Assembly: GCA_947593515.1 (NCBI GenBank)
Contig: CANQDQ010000008.1
Span: 1 to 64,000, forward strand
Direction: 5' to 3'
Length of the DNA: 64,000 nucleotides
Source of the DNA: an uncultured Bacteroidales bacterium
GTDB taxonomy: Bacteria; Bacteroidota; Bacteroidia; Bacteroidales; UBA11471
Shown here: positions 13,461-20,969 of the stretch, piece by piece
Layout of the letters: each line of letters starts with the position of its first letter
Position numbering within the stretch: the stretch's first letter is position 1
Translations under genes and position numbers: made by a program
Notes under the pieces: generated by a model
Databases searched by the model: none
What the model saw: the letters and a program-made list of their open reading frames with translations, nothing else
Told to the model about the DNA's origin: nothing

Positions 13461-14366
13461 ATGAATACGAAAGTGTGGATAGAAGCCGCCCGTCCCCGCA
13501 CGCTGCCGACCTCCGTGTGTCCGGTCATTGCCGCCACCGCGTATGCGTGGGCGCAGGGGAAAGCCGACTGGGGGGCTGCCGCCATCTGTTTCTTTTTCGC
13601 GCTCGCGGCGCAGGTGGCTGCCAACTTCGGGAACGACTACTTCGACTACAAACGGGGCGCCGACCGCGCCGACCGCGTGGGTCCGCGCCGCGCCGTTACC
13701 GCCGGCGACATTTCGCCGCGCGCCATGCTCGGCGCCACGCTGGCGACACTGGGTATCGCCTGCGCCGCCGGCTGCCTGCTCATACCGACAGCGGGGTGGT
13801 GGCTCGTCGCCGCCGGCGCCGTCATCGCCGTTGCCGCACTGGCTTACTCGGCAGGTCCTTACCCGCTCTCGTATCACGGATTGGGCGATGTTACGGTATG
13901 GACGTTTTTCGGCTTGGTGGCAGTGAACCTGACCTACTACGTGCAAGCCTTGTCGTTCGATTTCGACGTGTTCCTTTGCAGCGCAGCCATGGGGCTGCTG
14001 TCTGTCAATATATTGATTGTCAACAATTACCGCGATTACGAAGACGACAAAGCCGCCGGCAAGCACACGACAGTGGTACTGTTCGGACGGCGTTTCGCCC
14101 GCACGGCTTACCACCTCAACGGCATCGCCGCTCTGCTGCTCACGGTAAACGCATGGATTGCCGCCGGCGCGGCGGGCATCGTGCTGCTGCACGTCTACGT
14201 GGTGCTGCACCTCAAAGGCTGCCGCGCCCTCTCGACCTGCACGGGGCGCGAACTCAACAAGGTATTGGGCATGACTGCCCGCAACCAACTGATATTTACC
14301 CTGCTGCTCGTAGCGGCACTCCTGCTCGCAGCATTCGACATACCCTTTTTCCTCTTTACCTTATGA
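13461..14366 (+). CDS. menA: 1,4-dihydroxy-2-naphthoate polyprenyltransferase
   Basis: A 301-residue integral membrane UbiA-family enzyme that prenylates dihydroxynaphthoate in menaquinone synthesis. It starts with WIEAARPRTLPTSVCPVIA, typical of MenA. The first Asp-rich motif is NDYFDYKRGADRADRVGPRR; the second is NNYRDYEDDKAAGKHTTVV. About eight hydrophobic helices follow. It overlaps the next gene by four bases (ATGA), indicating translational coupling. Anaerobic respiration through menaquinone fits the host group. Confidence 0.94.
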   Translation: MNTKVWIEAARPRTLPTSVCPVIAATAYAWAQGKADWGAAAICFFFALAAQVAANFGNDYFDYKRGADRADRVGPRRAVTAGDISPRAMLGATLATLGIACAAGCLLIPTAGWWLVAAGAVIAVAALAYSAGPYPLSYHGLGDVTVWTFFGLVAVNLTYYVQALSFDFDVFLCSAAMGLLSVNILIVNNYRDYEDDKAAGKHTTVVLFGRRFARTAYHLNGIAALLLTVNAWIAAGAAGIVLLHVYVVLHLKGCRALSTCTGRELNKVLGMTARNQLIFTLLLVAALLLAAFDIPFFLFTL

Positions 14367-15238
14367 ACCGTTTTTTCCATACCTTTTCCGATGCTTCGTT
14401 TGCCGTAAAGGTTTGCATCTTTTTGTTGTTCGAGCTGGCGGGGCTTTGTCTGACCATGCTCCTTTCCGTTATCTACACCGCCCTTTTCGACGGCATCGCC
14501 GCCCTGCGTCTTGCCCTCGCTTCGCAAGACCTGTTCCTGTTCATCGTGCCGGCATGGTGCGCCGCGCTGTTTTTCGGCGGCAACGCTGCGCGGTATCTGC
14601 ACGCCGACCGAATGCCCCGCGCCGCCTCCCTGCTCGGTATGCTCGCCGTGCTGCTCGCCGCCACGCTGCCGATGGAGAGAATCATCGCATGGAACGAAGC
14701 GGTGCGGCTGCCCGAATCGCTTGCCACCCTCGAATCGTGGCTGCGGGCGCAGGAAGATGCGGCGCAGGCGCTGACGCAGCAGATTCTGCAATTCGGCTCC
14801 GTCGGCGATATGCTCGCGATGCTGCTTATCGTGGGCGTACTCACCGGCATCGGCGAGGAGTTCGTGTTTCGCGGCATCGTGCAGCGGCTGCTGTTGGAAA
14901 AGCTGCGCAACAGCCACGCCGCCGTGTGGATTGCCGCATTTCTGTTCAGCGCCATACATTTTCAATTTTACGGCTTCGTGCCGCGTATGCTGCTCGGGGC
15001 GTTCTTCGGGTATCTGTTAGTATGGTCGGGCAACATCTGGCTGCCGGTGGCAGCCCATGCCCTGAACAACAGCTTCGCCGTACTCGACGCCTATTTTTCG
15101 GAAAATATGGCAGCGAGCGAGGAAATACGCAACTGGGCGACAGCGGGCGGCGCGTGGATATGGCTCGTCAGCCTGCCGATACTTGCCGTGCTGCTCGGGT
15201 GGCTGCGAAACCGGTGTCTGCACGAGCGGCGACGGTAA
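14363..15238 (+). CDS. CPBP family intramembrane metalloprotease
   Basis: A 291-residue polytopic membrane protein. The CPBP/Abi motifs are in order: EEFVFRGIVQRLLLEKL (Glu pair plus Arg), FSAIHFQFYGFVPR (His) and the final HALNNSFAV. Such proteins are Rce1-like proteases, some linked to prenyl-protein processing, bacteriocin immunity or signalling. The start overlaps the menA stop as ATGA, so they form an operon. A partner substrate is not evident nearby. Confidence 0.87.
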   Translation: MNRFFHTFSDASFAVKVCIFLLFELAGLCLTMLLSVIYTALFDGIAALRLALASQDLFLFIVPAWCAALFFGGNAARYLHADRMPRAASLLGMLAVLLAATLPMERIIAWNEAVRLPESLATLESWLRAQEDAAQALTQQILQFGSVGDMLAMLLIVGVLTGIGEEFVFRGIVQRLLLEKLRNSHAAVWIAAFLFSAIHFQFYGFVPRMLLGAFFGYLLVWSGNIWLPVAAHALNNSFAVLDAYFSENMAASEEIRNWATAGGAWIWLVSLPILAVLLGWLRNRCLHERRR

Positions 15239-15342: not shown

Positions 15343-15373
15343 TTTGCAATTCCCGTTTTTCTCTTTATCTTTG
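15343..15373 (+). promoter_or_regulatory. Promoter of the Phe/Tyr operon
   Basis: TTTG (15343-15346), exactly 19 bp, TATCTTTG (15366-15373). Transcription should start near 15380, about 20 nt before the leader peptide ATG. Confidence 0.85.
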
Positions 15374-15400
15374 TCCCTCGAAAAAAATTTCGAGAACGAT

Positions 15401-15457
15401 ATGAAACAGATGTTCAACTACGCATATTCCTTTTATTTTTACTTTACCCAAAAGTAA
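15401..15457 (+). CDS. Phe/Tyr leader peptide
   Basis: The peptide is MKQMFNYAYSFYFYFTQK (18 residues). It has four Phe and four Tyr, including the uninterrupted block FYFYF at residues 11-15 (codons 15431-15445). It lies between a consensus promoter and a Rho-independent terminator directly upstream of pheA. Charging of tRNA-Phe and tRNA-Tyr would govern ribosome position, as in classical attenuation of amino acid operons. The stop codon ends at 15457, two bases before the antiterminator arm. It is too short for gene finders; evidence is composition and placement. Confidence 0.85.
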   Translation: MKQMFNYAYSFYFYFTQK

Positions 15458-15529
15458 AAACGGGATTTCGCGCGGCTGCACATTCGATAAAATAAAGAAA
15501 AATCCCGTTCACAAGACGGGATTTTTTTT
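15436..15529 (+). promoter_or_regulatory. Transcription attenuator of the Phe/Tyr operon
   Basis: Three structures are visible. A proximal hairpin pairs 15436-15445 with 15451-15460 (10 bp) at the end of the leader peptide. An antiterminator pairs AACGGGATTT (15459-15468) with AAATCCCGTT (15500-15509). A terminator pairs 15498-15508 with 15516-15526 (11 bp), with T8 at 15522-15529. Antiterminator and terminator share the strand 15500-15508 and are mutually exclusive. A ribosome at the stop codon would cover 15459-15468 and favour termination. A ribosome stalled in FYFYF would leave it free and favour read-through. Confidence 0.85.
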
Positions 15530-15547
15530 GATATAAACAAGAAACAA

Positions 15548-16393
15548 ATGAAACGCATCGCCATACAAGGAGGCAAAGGCTCGTTCCACGACATCACCGC
15601 CCACCGCTATTTCAGCGGCGAGGAGATAGATGTACTCTACTGCGCCACGTTCGAAGACGTTTTCAAAAGCATCAAATACGACGACAGCGTCATCGGTCTG
15701 GTAGCCATAGAAAACACCATTGCGGGGAGCCTGCTGCAAAATCATGAACTGCTGCGGGAAAGCGGATTTCAAATCATCGGCGAAGCCCGCCTGCACATCT
15801 CGCACTCGATTATGTGCCTGCCCGACGACGACTGGGACGACATCACCGAAGTAAACTCCCACCCTATTGCCCTGATGCAGTGCCGCGAATTTCTCAACGC
15901 ACACCCCCGCATGAAAGTGGTGGAAACCGAAGATACCGCCCAAAGCGCGGAAAACATCTTCAACCAAAACCTGCGCGGACACGCCGCCATCTGCGGAAAA
16001 GACGTCGCCGCCATGTACGGCATGAAAATATTGCAGGAGGGCATCGAAACCAACAAACACAACTCCACCCGCTTTTTGGTAATCGCCGACCGGTGGCACG
16101 CCGAAGAGTACCGCAAAAAAGAGAATCCGAGCAACAAGGCAAGCCTCGTGTTCTCGCTGCCGCACACCGAAGGCAGCCTTTCGCAGGTGCTTTCGATACT
16201 CTCGTTCTACAAAATGAATCTGACGAAAATACAGTCGCTTCCCATCATCGGACGGGAGTGGGAATACCAGTTCTACATCGACGTGGTTTTCGACGATATA
16301 TCGCGGTATCATCAGGCTATCAATGCCATACGACCGCTTATCGGAGAACTTAAAATATTAGGAGAATATGCCGAATCAAAAGACAACCTGTAA
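15548..16393 (+). CDS. pheA: Prephenate dehydratase
   Basis: A 281-residue enzyme converting prephenate to phenylpyruvate. The PDT domain (1-180) contains GSFHDITAHRYF, VAIENTIAGSLLQNHELL and the catalytic NSTRFLV. The C-terminal ACT domain (about 195-275; GSLSQVLSILSFYKMNLTKI) would bind Phe for feedback inhibition. It is monofunctional here: chorismate mutase is fused to the DAHP synthase downstream. It begins 18 bp after the attenuator T-run and its 3' end overlaps the next gene by 26 bases, so the operon is tightly coupled. Confidence 0.95.
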   Translation: MKRIAIQGGKGSFHDITAHRYFSGEEIDVLYCATFEDVFKSIKYDDSVIGLVAIENTIAGSLLQNHELLRESGFQIIGEARLHISHSIMCLPDDDWDDITEVNSHPIALMQCREFLNAHPRMKVVETEDTAQSAENIFNQNLRGHAAICGKDVAAMYGMKILQEGIETNKHNSTRFLVIADRWHAEEYRKKENPSNKASLVFSLPHTEGSLSQVLSILSFYKMNLTKIQSLPIIGREWEYQFYIDVVFDDISRYHQAINAIRPLIGELKILGEYAESKDNL

Positions 16394-17555
16394 CCCTGTC
16401 GTACCCGCCAATCGGGTGAATACGATCAGCGAATACTACTTCTCGAAAAAACTCAAAGAGGTGGCGGAAATGAATGCGCGCGGACTGAATGTCATCAGTC
16501 TGGGCATCGGCAGTCCCGACAAGCCGCCGCACCGCGACGCCATAGAAACGCTCTGCCGCGAAAGCCGCAAGAACAACACGCACGGGTATCAACCCTACGT
16601 GGGCATACCGGCGTTGCGCAAGGCTTTTGCCGAGTGGTACAAAGAATGGTACGGCGTAACGCTCGACCCGCAAACCGAAATACAGCCGCTTATCGGTTCG
16701 AAAGAGGGCATACTGCATATATCGCTGGCATTCCTCAATCCGGGCGACGGCGTATTGGTGCCCAATCCGGGATACCCGACCTACACGTCGGTGAGCCGTC
16801 TGGCAGAGGCGCGCATCATTCCTTACGAGTTGAGGGAGGAGAACAAGTGGCAACCCGACTTCGAGGCGTTGGAGCGGAGCGACCTTTCGGGCGTGAAACT
16901 CATGTGGGTGAACTACCCCAATATGCCGACCGGTGCACCCGCTTCGCGCGAACTGTTTGAGAAATTAGTGGACTTCGGTCGTCGACACGGCATCGTCATC
17001 GTAAACGACAATCCGTACAGCTTCATACTCAACGACAAGCCGTTGAGCCTGCTTTCGGTCGAAGGGGCGAAAGACATCTGCATAGAAATGAACTCCATGA
17101 GCAAAGCGCACAATATGCCGGGCTGGCGCATCGGTATGCTGGCATCGAACCGTCAATTCGTGGAATGGGTCTTGCGGGTGAAAAGCAACATCGACAGCGG
17201 CACGTTCCGCCCCATGCAGGAGGCGGCCGTAACGGCGCTCGCCCTGCCGGCATCGTGGTACCGCGACATCAATGCGGTGTATAAAGAGCGGCGCATCGTA
17301 GCGGAGCAAATCGTCAAAGCCTTAGGCTGCACGTTCGACCCCGACCAACGAGGTATGTTTCTGTGGGCGAAAGTGCCCGACAGCGTCGAAAGCGGGGCTG
17401 CGCTGGCCGACCGCGTACTCTACGAAGCGCACGTATTCATCACGCCGGGCATGATATTCGGCAGTCAAGGCGAACGCTATATCCGCATTTCGCTCTGCGC
17501 CGACCTGCCCGCCTTGCAGGAAGCATTGGAACGCATCGAACAACACATACGATAA
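16368..17555 (+). CDS. Class I/II pyridoxal-phosphate aminotransferase, probably aromatic
   Basis: A 395-residue fold-type I aminotransferase. Recognisable segments are ISLGIGSPDKPPHRD, PLIGSKEGILHISLAFLNPG, PNPGYPTYTSVSRLAEA, WVNYPNMPTGAPAS (substrate Asn) and the PLP-lysine motif EMNSMSKAHNMPGWRIGM. Family members include aspartate, LL-diaminopimelate and aromatic aminotransferases. Its position between pheA and the DAHP synthase argues for the last transamination to Phe and Tyr. It overlaps pheA by 26 bases. Confidence 0.88.
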   Translation: MPNQKTTCNPVVPANRVNTISEYYFSKKLKEVAEMNARGLNVISLGIGSPDKPPHRDAIETLCRESRKNNTHGYQPYVGIPALRKAFAEWYKEWYGVTLDPQTEIQPLIGSKEGILHISLAFLNPGDGVLVPNPGYPTYTSVSRLAEARIIPYELREENKWQPDFEALERSDLSGVKLMWVNYPNMPTGAPASRELFEKLVDFGRRHGIVIVNDNPYSFILNDKPLSLLSVEGAKDICIEMNSMSKAHNMPGWRIGMLASNRQFVEWVLRVKSNIDSGTFRPMQEAAVTALALPASWYRDINAVYKERRIVAEQIVKALGCTFDPDQRGMFLWAKVPDSVESGAALADRVLYEAHVFITPGMIFGSQGERYIRISLCADLPALQEALERIEQHIR

Positions 17556-17572: not shown

Positions 17573-18649
17573 ATGGCAGACAAAGTTTTAGACTTGGAAC
17601 CCTTCACCTTTGCAGGTGTCGAAAACAAGCGACCCCTTATCATTGCCGGTCCTTGCAGCGCAGAGACCGAAGAACAGGTGCTCGAAACCGCCAAAGGGCT
17701 TGCAGCACAAGGCATCAAAATATTCCGTGCCGGAATATGGAAACCCCGTACCAAACCCGGAGGATTCGAGGGCGTGGGCAGCATCGGACTGCCGTGGCTC
17801 AAACGGGTGAAAGAGGAAACGGGTATGTACGTAGCTACCGAAGTCGCCAACCAGTACCACGTGCTCGAAGCGCTCAAACACGGCATCGACATTCTGTGGA
17901 TAGGCGCGCGCACCTCCGCCAACCCCTTCGCCATGCAGGAGATAGCCGACGCCCTGAAAGGCGCCGACATTCCCGTGATGATAAAAAATCCGGTGAACCC
18001 CGACCTCGAACTGTGGATAGGCGCGGTAGAACGCATCTACAATGCCGGCATACGCAAAATTGCCGTTATCCATCGCGGTTTCAGTTCATACGACAAACGG
18101 CTCTACCGCAACCTGCCGCAGTGGCATATCCCCATCGAATTTCGCCGTCGCTACCCGCACATACCGCTTTTCTGCGACCCCAGCCACATCGGCGGCAAAC
18201 GCGACCTCATCGCTCCGCTCTGCCAGCAGGCTATGGACTTGGGCTTCGACGGTCTCATCGTGGAATCGCACTGCAACCCCGACTGCGCATGGAGCGACGC
18301 CTCGCAGCAGGTTACGCCCGACACCCTCTCCTACATCTTGAATATGCTCGTGATACGCGAGACTTCGCAAAGCACGGAAAACCTGAACGAACTGCGCCGC
18401 CAAATCGACGAACTCGACAACCAACTGCTCGAACTGCTCGCCCGACGTATGCGCGTAGCCCGCGAAATAGGCGTGTACAAAAAGGAACACGGAATGCCCG
18501 TATGGCAGGCTGCCCGATACGATGAACTGTTGAGCAAGCGCGTAGAACAGGCGGTCGAACTCGAAATGGACGGCGATTTCATGAAAACTGTTCTCGCGGC
18601 TATTCACGAGGAGTCGGTAAGACAACAAATGATTATCATCAACCAATAA
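17573..18649 (+). CDS. Bifunctional DAHP synthase / chorismate mutase
   Basis: A 358-residue fusion. Residues 1-260 form a type I-beta DAHP synthase (LIIAGPCSAETEEQVLETAK, FRAGIWKPRTKPGGFEGVG, VMIKNPVNPDLELW, LFCDPSHIGGKRDLI, DGLIVESHCNPDCAWSDA) that condenses PEP and erythrose 4-phosphate. Residues 268-355 form an AroQ chorismate mutase (LRRQIDELDNQLLELLARRM, IGVYKKEHGMPVW). The fusion joins the first pathway step with the branch point and allows allosteric coupling. It sits 17 bp after the aminotransferase in the same operon. Confidence 0.96.
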   Translation: MADKVLDLEPFTFAGVENKRPLIIAGPCSAETEEQVLETAKGLAAQGIKIFRAGIWKPRTKPGGFEGVGSIGLPWLKRVKEETGMYVATEVANQYHVLEALKHGIDILWIGARTSANPFAMQEIADALKGADIPVMIKNPVNPDLELWIGAVERIYNAGIRKIAVIHRGFSSYDKRLYRNLPQWHIPIEFRRRYPHIPLFCDPSHIGGKRDLIAPLCQQAMDLGFDGLIVESHCNPDCAWSDASQQVTPDTLSYILNMLVIRETSQSTENLNELRRQIDELDNQLLELLARRMRVAREIGVYKKEHGMPVWQAARYDELLSKRVEQAVELEMDGDFMKTVLAAIHEESVRQQMIIINQ

Positions 18650-18659
18650 CGGCAACACC

Positions 18660-19433
18660 ATGAAGATTTTGATTTTGGGCGCAGGAAAAATGGGTTCGTT
18701 CTTCGCCGACGTGCTGAGTTTCGAACACGAAGTGGCGATATTCGACACCGACCCGCAACGCCTGCGATTCACATTCAACACGCTGCGCATGACGACGATG
18801 GACGAGGTGGAGGCTTTCCGCCCCGAACTGCTGATAAACGCCGTTACCCTGAAATACACGATTCCGGCATTCGAGAGCGTGCTGCCGCACCTGCCCGCCA
18901 CCTGCATCATCTCCGACATCGCTTCGGTGAAAACGGGACTGCCGGAATTCTACAAAAAAACGGGCAGACCGTTCGTATCGACACACCCGATGTTCGGCCC
19001 CACATTCGCCAACCTCGACAAACTCTCCGAAGAAAACACGATTATCATTTCGGAATCCGACCACTTGGGAAAGGTATTTTTCAGAGACCTGTACAGCCGG
19101 CTGCACCTCAACATCTTCGAATACACGTTCAAAGAACACGACGAAACCATCGCCTACTCGCTCTCCATACCGTTTGCCTCGACGATGGTATTCGCCGCGA
19201 TTATGAAACATCAGGACGCACCGGGTACGACGTTCAAAAAACACATGAACATCGCTCGCGGACTGCTCTCGGAAGACGACTTCCTCGTGATTGAAATTCT
19301 GTTCAATCCGCATACGCCCGAACAGTTGGAGAAAATACAGCAGCAACTCTCCACGCTGCAAAAAATCATTCGCGAAAAAGACAGCGACGAAATGAAAAAA
19401 TATTTGAGCCGCCTGCGGGAAAACATCAAATAA
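18660..19433 (+). CDS. tyrA: Prephenate dehydrogenase
   Basis: A 257-residue NAD(P)-dependent enzyme for the Tyr branch. The N-terminal Rossmann motif is MKILILGAGKMGSFFADVLS; DIASVKTGL and STHPMFGPTFANLDKL are the prephenate dehydrogenase signatures. No chorismate mutase or ACT domain is attached, consistent with the fusion upstream. It starts 10 bp after the DAHP synthase-mutase and is followed by a strong terminator, ending the operon. Confidence 0.94.
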   Translation: MKILILGAGKMGSFFADVLSFEHEVAIFDTDPQRLRFTFNTLRMTTMDEVEAFRPELLINAVTLKYTIPAFESVLPHLPATCIISDIASVKTGLPEFYKKTGRPFVSTHPMFGPTFANLDKLSEENTIIISESDHLGKVFFRDLYSRLHLNIFEYTFKEHDETIAYSLSIPFASTMVFAAIMKHQDAPGTTFKKHMNIARGLLSEDDFLVIEILFNPHTPEQLEKIQQQLSTLQKIIREKDSDEMKKYLSRLRENIK

Positions 19434-19457: not shown

Positions 19458-19490
19458 CGCCACCCGACCAACGGTCGGGTGGCGTTTTTT
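19458..19490 (+). terminator. Terminator of the Phe/Tyr operon
   Basis: A perfect 12-bp GC stem (19458-19469 with 19473-19484) is followed by T6. A near-identical hairpin recurs at 21053-21079. Confidence 0.92.
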
Positions 19491-19513
19491 ATTCGTAACG
19501 CGCTCCATTTTTT

Positions 19514-19628: not shown

Positions 19629-20969
19629 ATGGATAAACTCCTTAGAAGAAAGATAGATAGTGTACTCGCAGAATGGAAGAATCGAGCCGACCACAAGCCG
19701 TTGATCATCAAAGGCGCCAGACAAATCGGGAAAACAGTTTCCATTTCGGCATTCGCCCGCACGAACTACAAAAGTTTTATCTATATCAATTTTGTAGAAC
19801 AGAAAAAATACCGGAGCATCTTCGACGACGGCTATGAAGTAGAGACCATTCTGAAAAACATATCTCTGCTCAATCCCTCTTTCACGTTCATTCCCGGAGA
19901 TACGCTGTTTTTTTTCGACGAACTGCAAGAGTGTCCGTCATGCGCCACCGCCCTGAAATTTTTCAGCCTCGACGGACGCTACGATGTCATCTGCTCCGGC
20001 TCGCTGATGGGTATCAATTACCATGAAATAGAATCGAATGCCGTAGGTTTCAAAGAAGATTTCGAGATGCACTCGATGGACTTCGAGGAATTTTTGTGGG
20101 CAAAAAATTATTCCGACGACTTCATCGAAGATATGTACTGTCATATGCTCGACCTTCAACCCTTTACCGCGTTGGAACTCGACACCCTTTTCGGCATCTT
20201 CAAAGAGTATATGGTGCTGGGCGGAATGCCCGATGTGGTCAAAACCTATATCACCAACAAGAATTTTTCGGGAACGCTCAACATTCAAAAACAATTGCTT
20301 ATCGACTACGACGAAGATATTACCAAATATGCCGCAGGTCTCGACAAGGCAAAAATAAGAAATGTATATAATCATATTTCGGTGTTTCTTGCCAAAGAGA
20401 ACAAACGGTTTCAAATATCGAAAGTCGCCCTGAATGCCCGCAACCGCGACTACATCGGCATCATCGACTGGCTTTCTTCGGCGGGTATCATCAACCCGTG
20501 CTACTGTCTGGCAGAGGTGGCGCTGCCCCTGAAAGGCAATTACGACCCCAAATCGTATAAAATCTATTTCAAAGATACCGGACTGCTGATTGCATCGCTC
20601 GACGAGGAAGCGCAGGAAGACCTGCGGGCAAACCGGAACTTCGGCACCTACAAAGGCGCCATATACGAAAATATCGTGGGCGATATGCTGGCAAAACAGG
20701 GATATAACCTCTATTATTACAAACACGATAACCCCACGTTGGAAATGGATTTCTTTATCCGCGATGCCCGCAACCTGATTCCGGTAGAGGTGAAAGCAAA
20801 CGACGGAGCCACGCCGTCGCTCAAAAAACTCATTGAGGAGGACAAATACGGAGACATCTATTTCGGCATCAAACTGGGATATAAGAATATCGGTTTCAAC
20901 GGGCAATTCTATACATTTCCTTATTTCTTGACATTCCTGCTGAAACGCTATTTAAGAGAGCGGAAATAA
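19629..20969 (+). CDS. AAA/DUF4143 ATPase 2
   Basis: A 446-residue solitary ATPase. Walker A is IIKGARQIGKTVS (about 26-38), Walker B is TLFFFDELQ, and sensor 1 is VICSGSLMG. The central part carries the family motif EFLWAK. The C-terminal DUF4143 domain ends with PTLEMDFFI and IPVEVKAND, matching the ExD...ExK pattern of PD-(D/E)xK folds. The start is 19629, downstream of the -7 box; the ATG at 19587 lies in the repeats. The gene is bracketed by two nearly identical terminator hairpins (19458-19484 and 21053-21079), as expected for an inserted cassette. Function unknown. Confidence 0.85.
   Translation: MDKLLRRKIDSVLAEWKNRADHKPLIIKGARQIGKTVSISAFARTNYKSFIYINFVEQKKYRSIFDDGYEVETILKNISLLNPSFTFIPGDTLFFFDELQECPSCATALKFFSLDGRYDVICSGSLMGINYHEIESNAVGFKEDFEMHSMDFEEFLWAKNYSDDFIEDMYCHMLDLQPFTALELDTLFGIFKEYMVLGGMPDVVKTYITNKNFSGTLNIQKQLLIDYDEDITKYAAGLDKAKIRNVYNHISVFLAKENKRFQISKVALNARNRDYIGIIDWLSSAGIINPCYCLAEVALPLKGNYDPKSYKIYFKDTGLLIASLDEEAQEDLRANRNFGTYKGAIYENIVGDMLAKQGYNLYYYKHDNPTLEMDFFIRDARNLIPVEVKANDGATPSLKKLIEEDKYGDIYFGIKLGYKNIGFNGQFYTFPYFLTFLLKRYLRERK

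Follow-up and report, generated by a model that had tools for sequence, protein, structure and literature searches.

A leader region upstream of pheA in an uncultured Bacteroidales gut bacterium very probably regulates the pheA-aminotransferase-aroG/CM-tyrA operon by classical ribosome-mediated attenuation of transcription, in response to the charging of tRNA-Phe and tRNA-Tyr; sequence and comparison lead us to assign this reading a probability of about 0.93. The window, i.e., the whole 64,000-nucleotide stretch of DNA that was analysed (contig CANQDQ010000008.1), contains all the elements of such a device on the forward strand, and its relatives display class-wide conservation, covariation, a fixed spacing between codons and antiterminator arm, and a codon content that follows the genes. 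The attenuator interpretation had been put forward in an earlier note on the bare sequence, and it is strongly supported by the comparative data.

Promoter, leader frame and operon

The region opens with a Bacteroides-type promoter at 15343-15373, read directly as TTTG (15343-15346), a 19-nt spacer and TATCTTTG (15366-15373), in agreement with the Bacteroides -33/-7 pattern; as expected for a promoter of this type, a sigma-70 scan of the region returned no match. The coordinates given for the promoter in the earlier note were exact on re-reading, and the element is conserved in relatives: TAnnTTTG occurs within 110 nt 5' of the leader ATG in 103 of 120 order-level relatives, against 7.8% of shuffles, and the longer pattern TTG-N18-22-TAnnTTTG occurs upstream of the leader in 86 of the same 120, against 0.7% of shuffles.

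The leader ORF (15401-15457), read from the sequence, encodes MKQMFNYAYSFYFYFTQK followed by a stop codon and comprises 18 codons, with four Phe and four Tyr, and its aromatic run FYFYF at residues 11-15 (15431-15445) contains the putative sensing codons, as suggested by the codon pattern in aligned order-level leaders; the frame, its composition and the run had been described in the same terms, base for base. Met1 is preferred to Met4 as the start because the congeners, with MKHCFGHTYFFYFYFNNK and MKRCFGYTYFFYFYFNER, lack Met4. Across the last eight codons of 129 aligned order-level leaders, the first base is a near-invariant T, the second is T or A (Phe or Tyr) and the third is free to be T or C, a synonymous freedom that fits a translated frame. 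The site thus has a short ORF rich in codons for the products of the pathway, kept with synonymous changes in relatives.

The genes downstream are those named from the sequence alone, as judged by Pfam: pheA, encoding prephenate dehydratase (15548-16393; PF00800, E 3.7e-53); a class I/II aminotransferase, presumed to be an aromatic aminotransferase (16368-17555; PF00155, E 2.5e-60); a DAHP synthase-chorismate mutase fusion, aroG-aroQ (17573-18649; PF00793 and PF01817); and tyrA, encoding prephenate dehydrogenase (18660-19433; PF02153, E 4.2e-8), which matches the NCBIfam prephenate dehydrogenase models at E 2.3e-20 but under their curated cut-offs. The operon ends at a strong intrinsic terminator (19458-19493), made of a 12-bp stem at 19458-19484 and a T run. 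Directly 5' of the promoter, at 13464-15238, menA (UbiA family) and a gene for a CPBP-type (Rce1-like) intramembrane protease lie on the same strand, and an AAA_14/DUF4143-type ATPase gene is found just 3' of the operon terminator, at 19632-20966. Elsewhere in the window, a simple scan for further amino-acid leaders turned up a single match, at 2016, which was not convincing, and a plasmid search with pheA gave none. An additional match to the leader region in the same genome (L002) was set aside, being a plain terminator that follows an unrelated gene.

Alternative RNA structures

Four RNA segments are distinguished from the aromatic run up to pheA. Segment 1 (15428-15445) is the 5' side of a 1:2 protector hairpin found in the minimum free energy (MFE) folds, in which 15436-15445 pairs with 15451-15460 and 15428-15431 with 15462-15465, sequestering the antiterminator arm; it is a third pairing, an element of classical attenuators that the earlier note lacked. 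Segment 2, the antiterminator arm AACGGGATTT (15459-15468), begins 1 nt past the leader stop codon and is the perfect complement of 15500-15509, as had been claimed. Segment 3 (15498-15509) is a shared arm that, by complementarity and by covariation with both partners, pairs either with segment 2 to form the antiterminator or with segment 4 to form the terminator. Segment 4 (15516-15526), the perfect complement of 15498-15508, forms with a run of eight T an intrinsic terminator whose 3' portion covers 15516-15529; the terminator pairing was correctly proposed, and its T8 is corrected to 15522-15529, five of the eight T lying inside the 3' arm. Only 18 nt separate this T run from the pheA start at 15548.

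The RNA at 15390-15540 folds with z = -4.6 relative to shuffles, and the terminator hairpin (15488-15528) has a stability of about -15.8 kcal/mol. In a calculation on the growing RNA, a free arm has already bound segment 3 by the time segment 4 is made, whereas a masked arm leaves only the terminator; in the full-length equilibrium the terminator is more stable than the antiterminator, so that read-through would be a kinetic outcome. Antiterminator and intrinsic terminator are thus predicted to be mutually exclusive from complementarity, covariation and fold calculations alike. The 1:2 protector hairpin, present in the MFE structure, is favoured by the native choice among synonymous codons: when native Phe/Tyr codons are compared with synonymous permutations across loci, the 1:2 fold with the arm is more stable for the native codons in 111 loci, against 36.

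Conservation and covariation in relatives

Since the window's own genus and family were represented in the sample by only seven genomes, pheA was traced through order, class and phylum; the counts that follow come from relatives that are not independent of one another. The full unit of aromatic leader, pairing arm and terminator was found 5' of pheA at 183 of 227 Bacteroidia loci; 681 shuffles of the upstream sequence yielded not one. In another set, of 183 loci that included phylum-level ones, an aromatic-rich frame, defined as at least six Phe, Tyr or Trp in eight residues, occurs at 151, compared with 6% of dinucleotide shuffles, and 16 of the 32 loci that lack it are phylum-level outgroups with pheA in other surroundings. 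Nearly all Bacteroidales genomes have a short aromatic frame 5' of pheA, examples being MNSFAYTFSFFFYFYFSHKVEREFVCI (Bacteroides ihuae), MTRFSFTYSYFYFYFSRVKAGICL (Parabacteroides) and MIGSVFAFGFWFYFYFSR (Proteiniphilum). The leader is absent in some lineages (e.g., L052, L053 and one class-level family, L264-L269). Similar pheA clusters without any aromatic leader were seen in these genomes and in L275 and L287 of the class-level sample, where the attenuator has been lost or was never present.

The paired arms change together. The duplex between antiterminator arm and terminator arm averages -15.2 kcal/mol when both come from their own locus, -10.0 kcal/mol when they are swapped between loci and -6.4 kcal/mol when they are shuffled, and the own-locus duplex is better than the mean swap in 147 of 150 loci. 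At the central position, a C in segment 3 is matched by a G in segment 2 in all 80 cases and a T by an A in 46 of 49, changes that arose about seven times independently on the pheA tree; the covariation is three-way, linking segment 3 with segments 2 and 4. Of the checks that the earlier note had called for, the two open to sequence analysis, an alignment of the regions upstream of pheA and a search for covariation, therefore both came out in its favour: the leader frame is kept across order and class, and each of the alternative stems is conserved and covaries.

These data also bear on whether the site is just an ordinary terminator or insulator between the menA/CPBP genes and pheA, with the leader as a chance AT-rich frame. 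T-rich DNA of low complexity readily yields Phe and Tyr codons, as the 6% of shuffles with an aromatic-rich frame illustrate; nevertheless, a full unit at most real loci and at no shuffled one, a conserved promoter just 5' of the frame and the covariation of the antiterminator arm go against chance, and the conservation refutes this explanation, to which we leave hardly any probability.

The relatives also locate the part of the geometry under constraint. In 130 of 150 loci the antiterminator arm starts 8-13 nt (median 9) past the final aromatic codon, which places the arm at the expected front edge of a ribosome holding that codon in its A site. Conversely, the position of the leader stop ranges between -44 and +5, one locus excepted, the arm spacing is independent of the stop, and in 66 of 150 relatives, Bacteroides included, the ORF reads through the arm. 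What the relatives keep is the codon-to-arm spacing and not the place of the stop. For the window, the proposal that a ribosome resting on the stop codon masks the arm is right. As judged from geometry, the position of a stalled versus a finishing ribosome would decide which structure forms.

Leader codons and operon splits

Function is best supported by a natural experiment, in which the codon content of the leader appears, from sequence comparison, to follow the genes controlled. Where pheA is operon-linked, i.e., beside the aminotransferase, aroG/CM or tyrA, Tyr is missing altogether from the ten-residue run in just two of 143 leaders, and four contain no more than one. Six genomes have a solitary pheA, and in five of them the codon run is devoid of Tyr (MTRFFTHFFFFFTQQ, MRRNSFRFFFFFAFFFC..., MITINNSFFFFFFRSDPEKGL, MYFDFVFGFLFCFPKS and MYNTSASFFSNFFFVFTWRR); the sixth leader, MRQFNSFYWFYFDFTQQG, precedes a pheA that is followed by trp genes. 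The difference between solitary and operon-linked pheA in leaders with at most one Tyr in the run gives a Fisher value of 1.3e-6. On the pheA tree, which contains five independent separations, Tyr was lost in 4.6 of five pairings on average and the opposite never occurred, a tree-controlled test in which five pairs allow a sign-test p no lower than 0.0625. In five of the six solitary-pheA genomes, the aroG-tyrA cluster, now elsewhere, sits behind a leader and terminator of its own, and all of these leaders are Tyr-rich (MNNTFGYYAFYYYFFYNN, MIKNISVFAYFYYYFYFSKK, MTTYTFSYFYYWFRTP, MQTLNAYFYSYYYFAWQR and MQQLNAYVYSYYYFTLTR); in two more split genomes, where pheA has no leader, the cluster leaders are MSTFAYFYYYFYFNIK and MATQLFVYSYYFYFSWTS. 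An extra class-level sample of 60 loci added three solitary pheA genes, none with any leader, so that the split test gained no power.

Tyr content does not track the presence of tyrA inside the operon (3.4 vs 3.7 Tyr), which indicates that only the complete separation of pheA matters. As for other surroundings, one solitary pheA with a Phe-only leader (L130) is followed by ilvD-ilvB-like genes, and two loci (L056, L057) have trpB and further trp genes 3' of pheA on the same strand and a Trp codon in their leaders.

Two other sensors can be weighed against these observations. The leader could be an arrest peptide of the TnaC type, in which the ribosome halts at a fixed peptide when free Phe, Tyr or some other ligand occupies its tunnel, and codon starvation is not the signal. 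The strong conservation of an FYFYF-like peptide across families, beyond what an aromatic codon count needs, would suit such a mechanism. Arrest requires fixed critical residues, whereas the leaders arrange Phe, Tyr and Trp in differing orders, include Phe-only and Tyr-rich forms and follow the controlled genes in their content; the alternation of Phe and Tyr may also stem in part from the 1:2 RNA pairing. With this geometry, stalling by an abundant product would leave the arm unmasked and turn the operon on, opposite to what a biosynthetic operon needs. We consider arrest very unlikely. Slightly less probable still is a terminator/antiterminator switch driven by a protein or ligand, i.e., an RNA-binding regulator or a riboswitch, with the short ORF incidental. 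Alternative stems taken by themselves could serve any sensor, but the frame is kept with synonymous third-base changes, the arm keeps its distance from the codons and the choice of amino acids encoded varies with gene content; in addition, no Rfam family exceeds its threshold in the window, which speaks against a T-box or known riboswitch at the site.

Trp codons and tandem attenuators

Among the residues of the core run that are neither Phe nor Tyr, Trp comes first (20 of 53), though two base substitutions separate TGG from every Phe or Tyr codon. Given that the operon includes a DAHP synthase, the leader may respond to Phe, Tyr and Trp alike in many relatives.

Two complete attenuators lie in series within 400 nt 5' of pheA in at least 13 loci (L006, L007, L016, L020, L086, L126, L131, L132, L135, L146, L147, L155 and L160), to which a looser look adds a few. 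An FYxYYFFYFM-like run recurs in the second leader of several of the Bacteroidales tandem loci, accompanied in some by a GGTGGGA arm. In L006 and L007, of the window's own genus, the interval between the first terminator and pheA holds another leader (MIQRFFRFYGYYFFYFMQQSVKVGG...), complete with arm and terminator; the window species has only 18 nt there and either lost this second unit or always lacked it. Its sequence is what a deletion from one T run to the other in a tandem form would leave.

Taken across the class, the leader may well be a retunable aromatic sensor, Phe-only with a lone pheA, Tyr-rich on a detached tyrA cluster, with Trp in many lineages and in tandem in several; we hold this broader view with less assurance than the attenuator itself and consider it somewhat favoured.

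Proposed mechanism

RNA polymerase would start from the promoter at 15343-15373 and the ribosome behind it would translate the 18-codon leader. When Phe- or Tyr-tRNA is short, the ribosome would stall in the aromatic run with its front edge just before 15459, leaving the arm at 15459-15468 free to pair with 15500-15509 once this has emerged; with the antiterminator formed, the terminator would come too late and the operon would be transcribed. When both charged tRNAs are plentiful, the ribosome would reach the stop codon and cover the arm, 15498-15508 would pair with 15516-15526 and transcription would end in the T run near 15529. If the leader is not translated, the codon run would pair with the arm (1:2) and termination would again be expected. 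The start of transcription, the stalling, and the termination and read-through in the cell are predictions of this scheme, which needs transcription-translation coupling in Bacteroidota.

Relation to known attenuators

In Proteobacteria, the pheA leader (pheL) is a Phe-rich leader that mediates ribosome-dependent attenuation of prephenate dehydratase by 1:2/2:3/3:4 logic. The window site would likewise be a ribosome-type attenuator of prephenate dehydratase with the same logic; unlike pheL, it is predicted to sense Tyr as well as Phe (and Trp too in relatives) and to control also tyrA and DAHP synthase. Its RNA is not a member of the Phe_leader family (RF01859), against which it scores 25.5 bits (E 0.021), under the gathering threshold of 55 bits; Thr_leader and Phe_leader are the nearest Rfam families, at about half their thresholds. 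The use of one leader to sense several amino acids made by one operon is established in Escherichia coli for ilvGMEDA (Ile/Leu/Val) and thr (Thr/Ile). The window leader would likewise sense several amino acids, but other ones, and differs in that the content of leaders of its type changes with gene content in five independent lineages.

Within Bacteroidota, Table 7 of Song et al. 2005 (PMC1173090), drawing on Merino's predictions, includes a putative attenuator 5' of the Bacteroides thetaiotaomicron pheA>hisHb>aroAIb-aroQ>tyrA operon, whose gene order is that of the window; the table entry consists of the attenuator symbol only and gives no leader peptide, sensed amino acids, mechanism, covariation or distribution. 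Leader-peptide attenuation was proposed from transcriptome maps for amino-acid operons of Flavobacterium psychrophilum (PMC9723704), which shares phylum and proposed mechanism with the window; the matching passages of that paper mention no pheA or Phe/Tyr leader. In B. thetaiotaomicron, sORFs reminiscent of leader-peptide attenuation were noted (PMC7366714). The Bacteroid-trp RNA (RF01692) of Weinberg et al. 2010 (PMC2864571) is a cis-regulatory RNA of Bacteroidetes trp genes, different from the pheA site in operon and sequence; it does not match the pheA site, and its only match in the window's genome, at trpB, is sub-threshold. At that trpB, the genome has a Trp leader (MTTNTQHNFWWWRYLQRKMS and a stop, with WWW) and a terminator (L239 1520-1650, G000:C9:41608-41729), scoring 45.7 bits for Bacteroid-trp against a threshold of 49.

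The view in the earlier note that no dual Phe/Tyr attenuator is known to have been described in Bacteroidales has to be narrowed, given the listed attenuator on the same operon, the Flavobacterium proposal and the Trp leader in the same genome; it holds for this leader, which the literature search, as far as the sources extend, found described in no paper, while older attenuation surveys may hold parts of it. The Phe/Tyr(/Trp) specificity, the class-wide spread, the tracking of gene content and the tandem copies were found described nowhere, and the features themselves are well supported.

Significance

Ribosome-mediated attenuation is known chiefly in Proteobacteria and Actinobacteria. According to Naville and Gautheret 2010 (PMC2965389), no leader-peptide system was known to be demonstrated outside these two groups before their own Firmicutes case. 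A class-wide leader in another phylum, with codons that follow the genes through five independent splits, is strong evolutionary evidence of function. It suggests how abundant gut bacteria set their aromatic amino-acid synthesis, offers a ready-made sensor for Bacteroides engineering and provides a clean test of whether the ribosomes of Bacteroidota trail RNA polymerase closely enough for attenuation. Lastly, a retunable sensor conserved in this way would, if real, imply coupling of transcription to translation in Bacteroidota.
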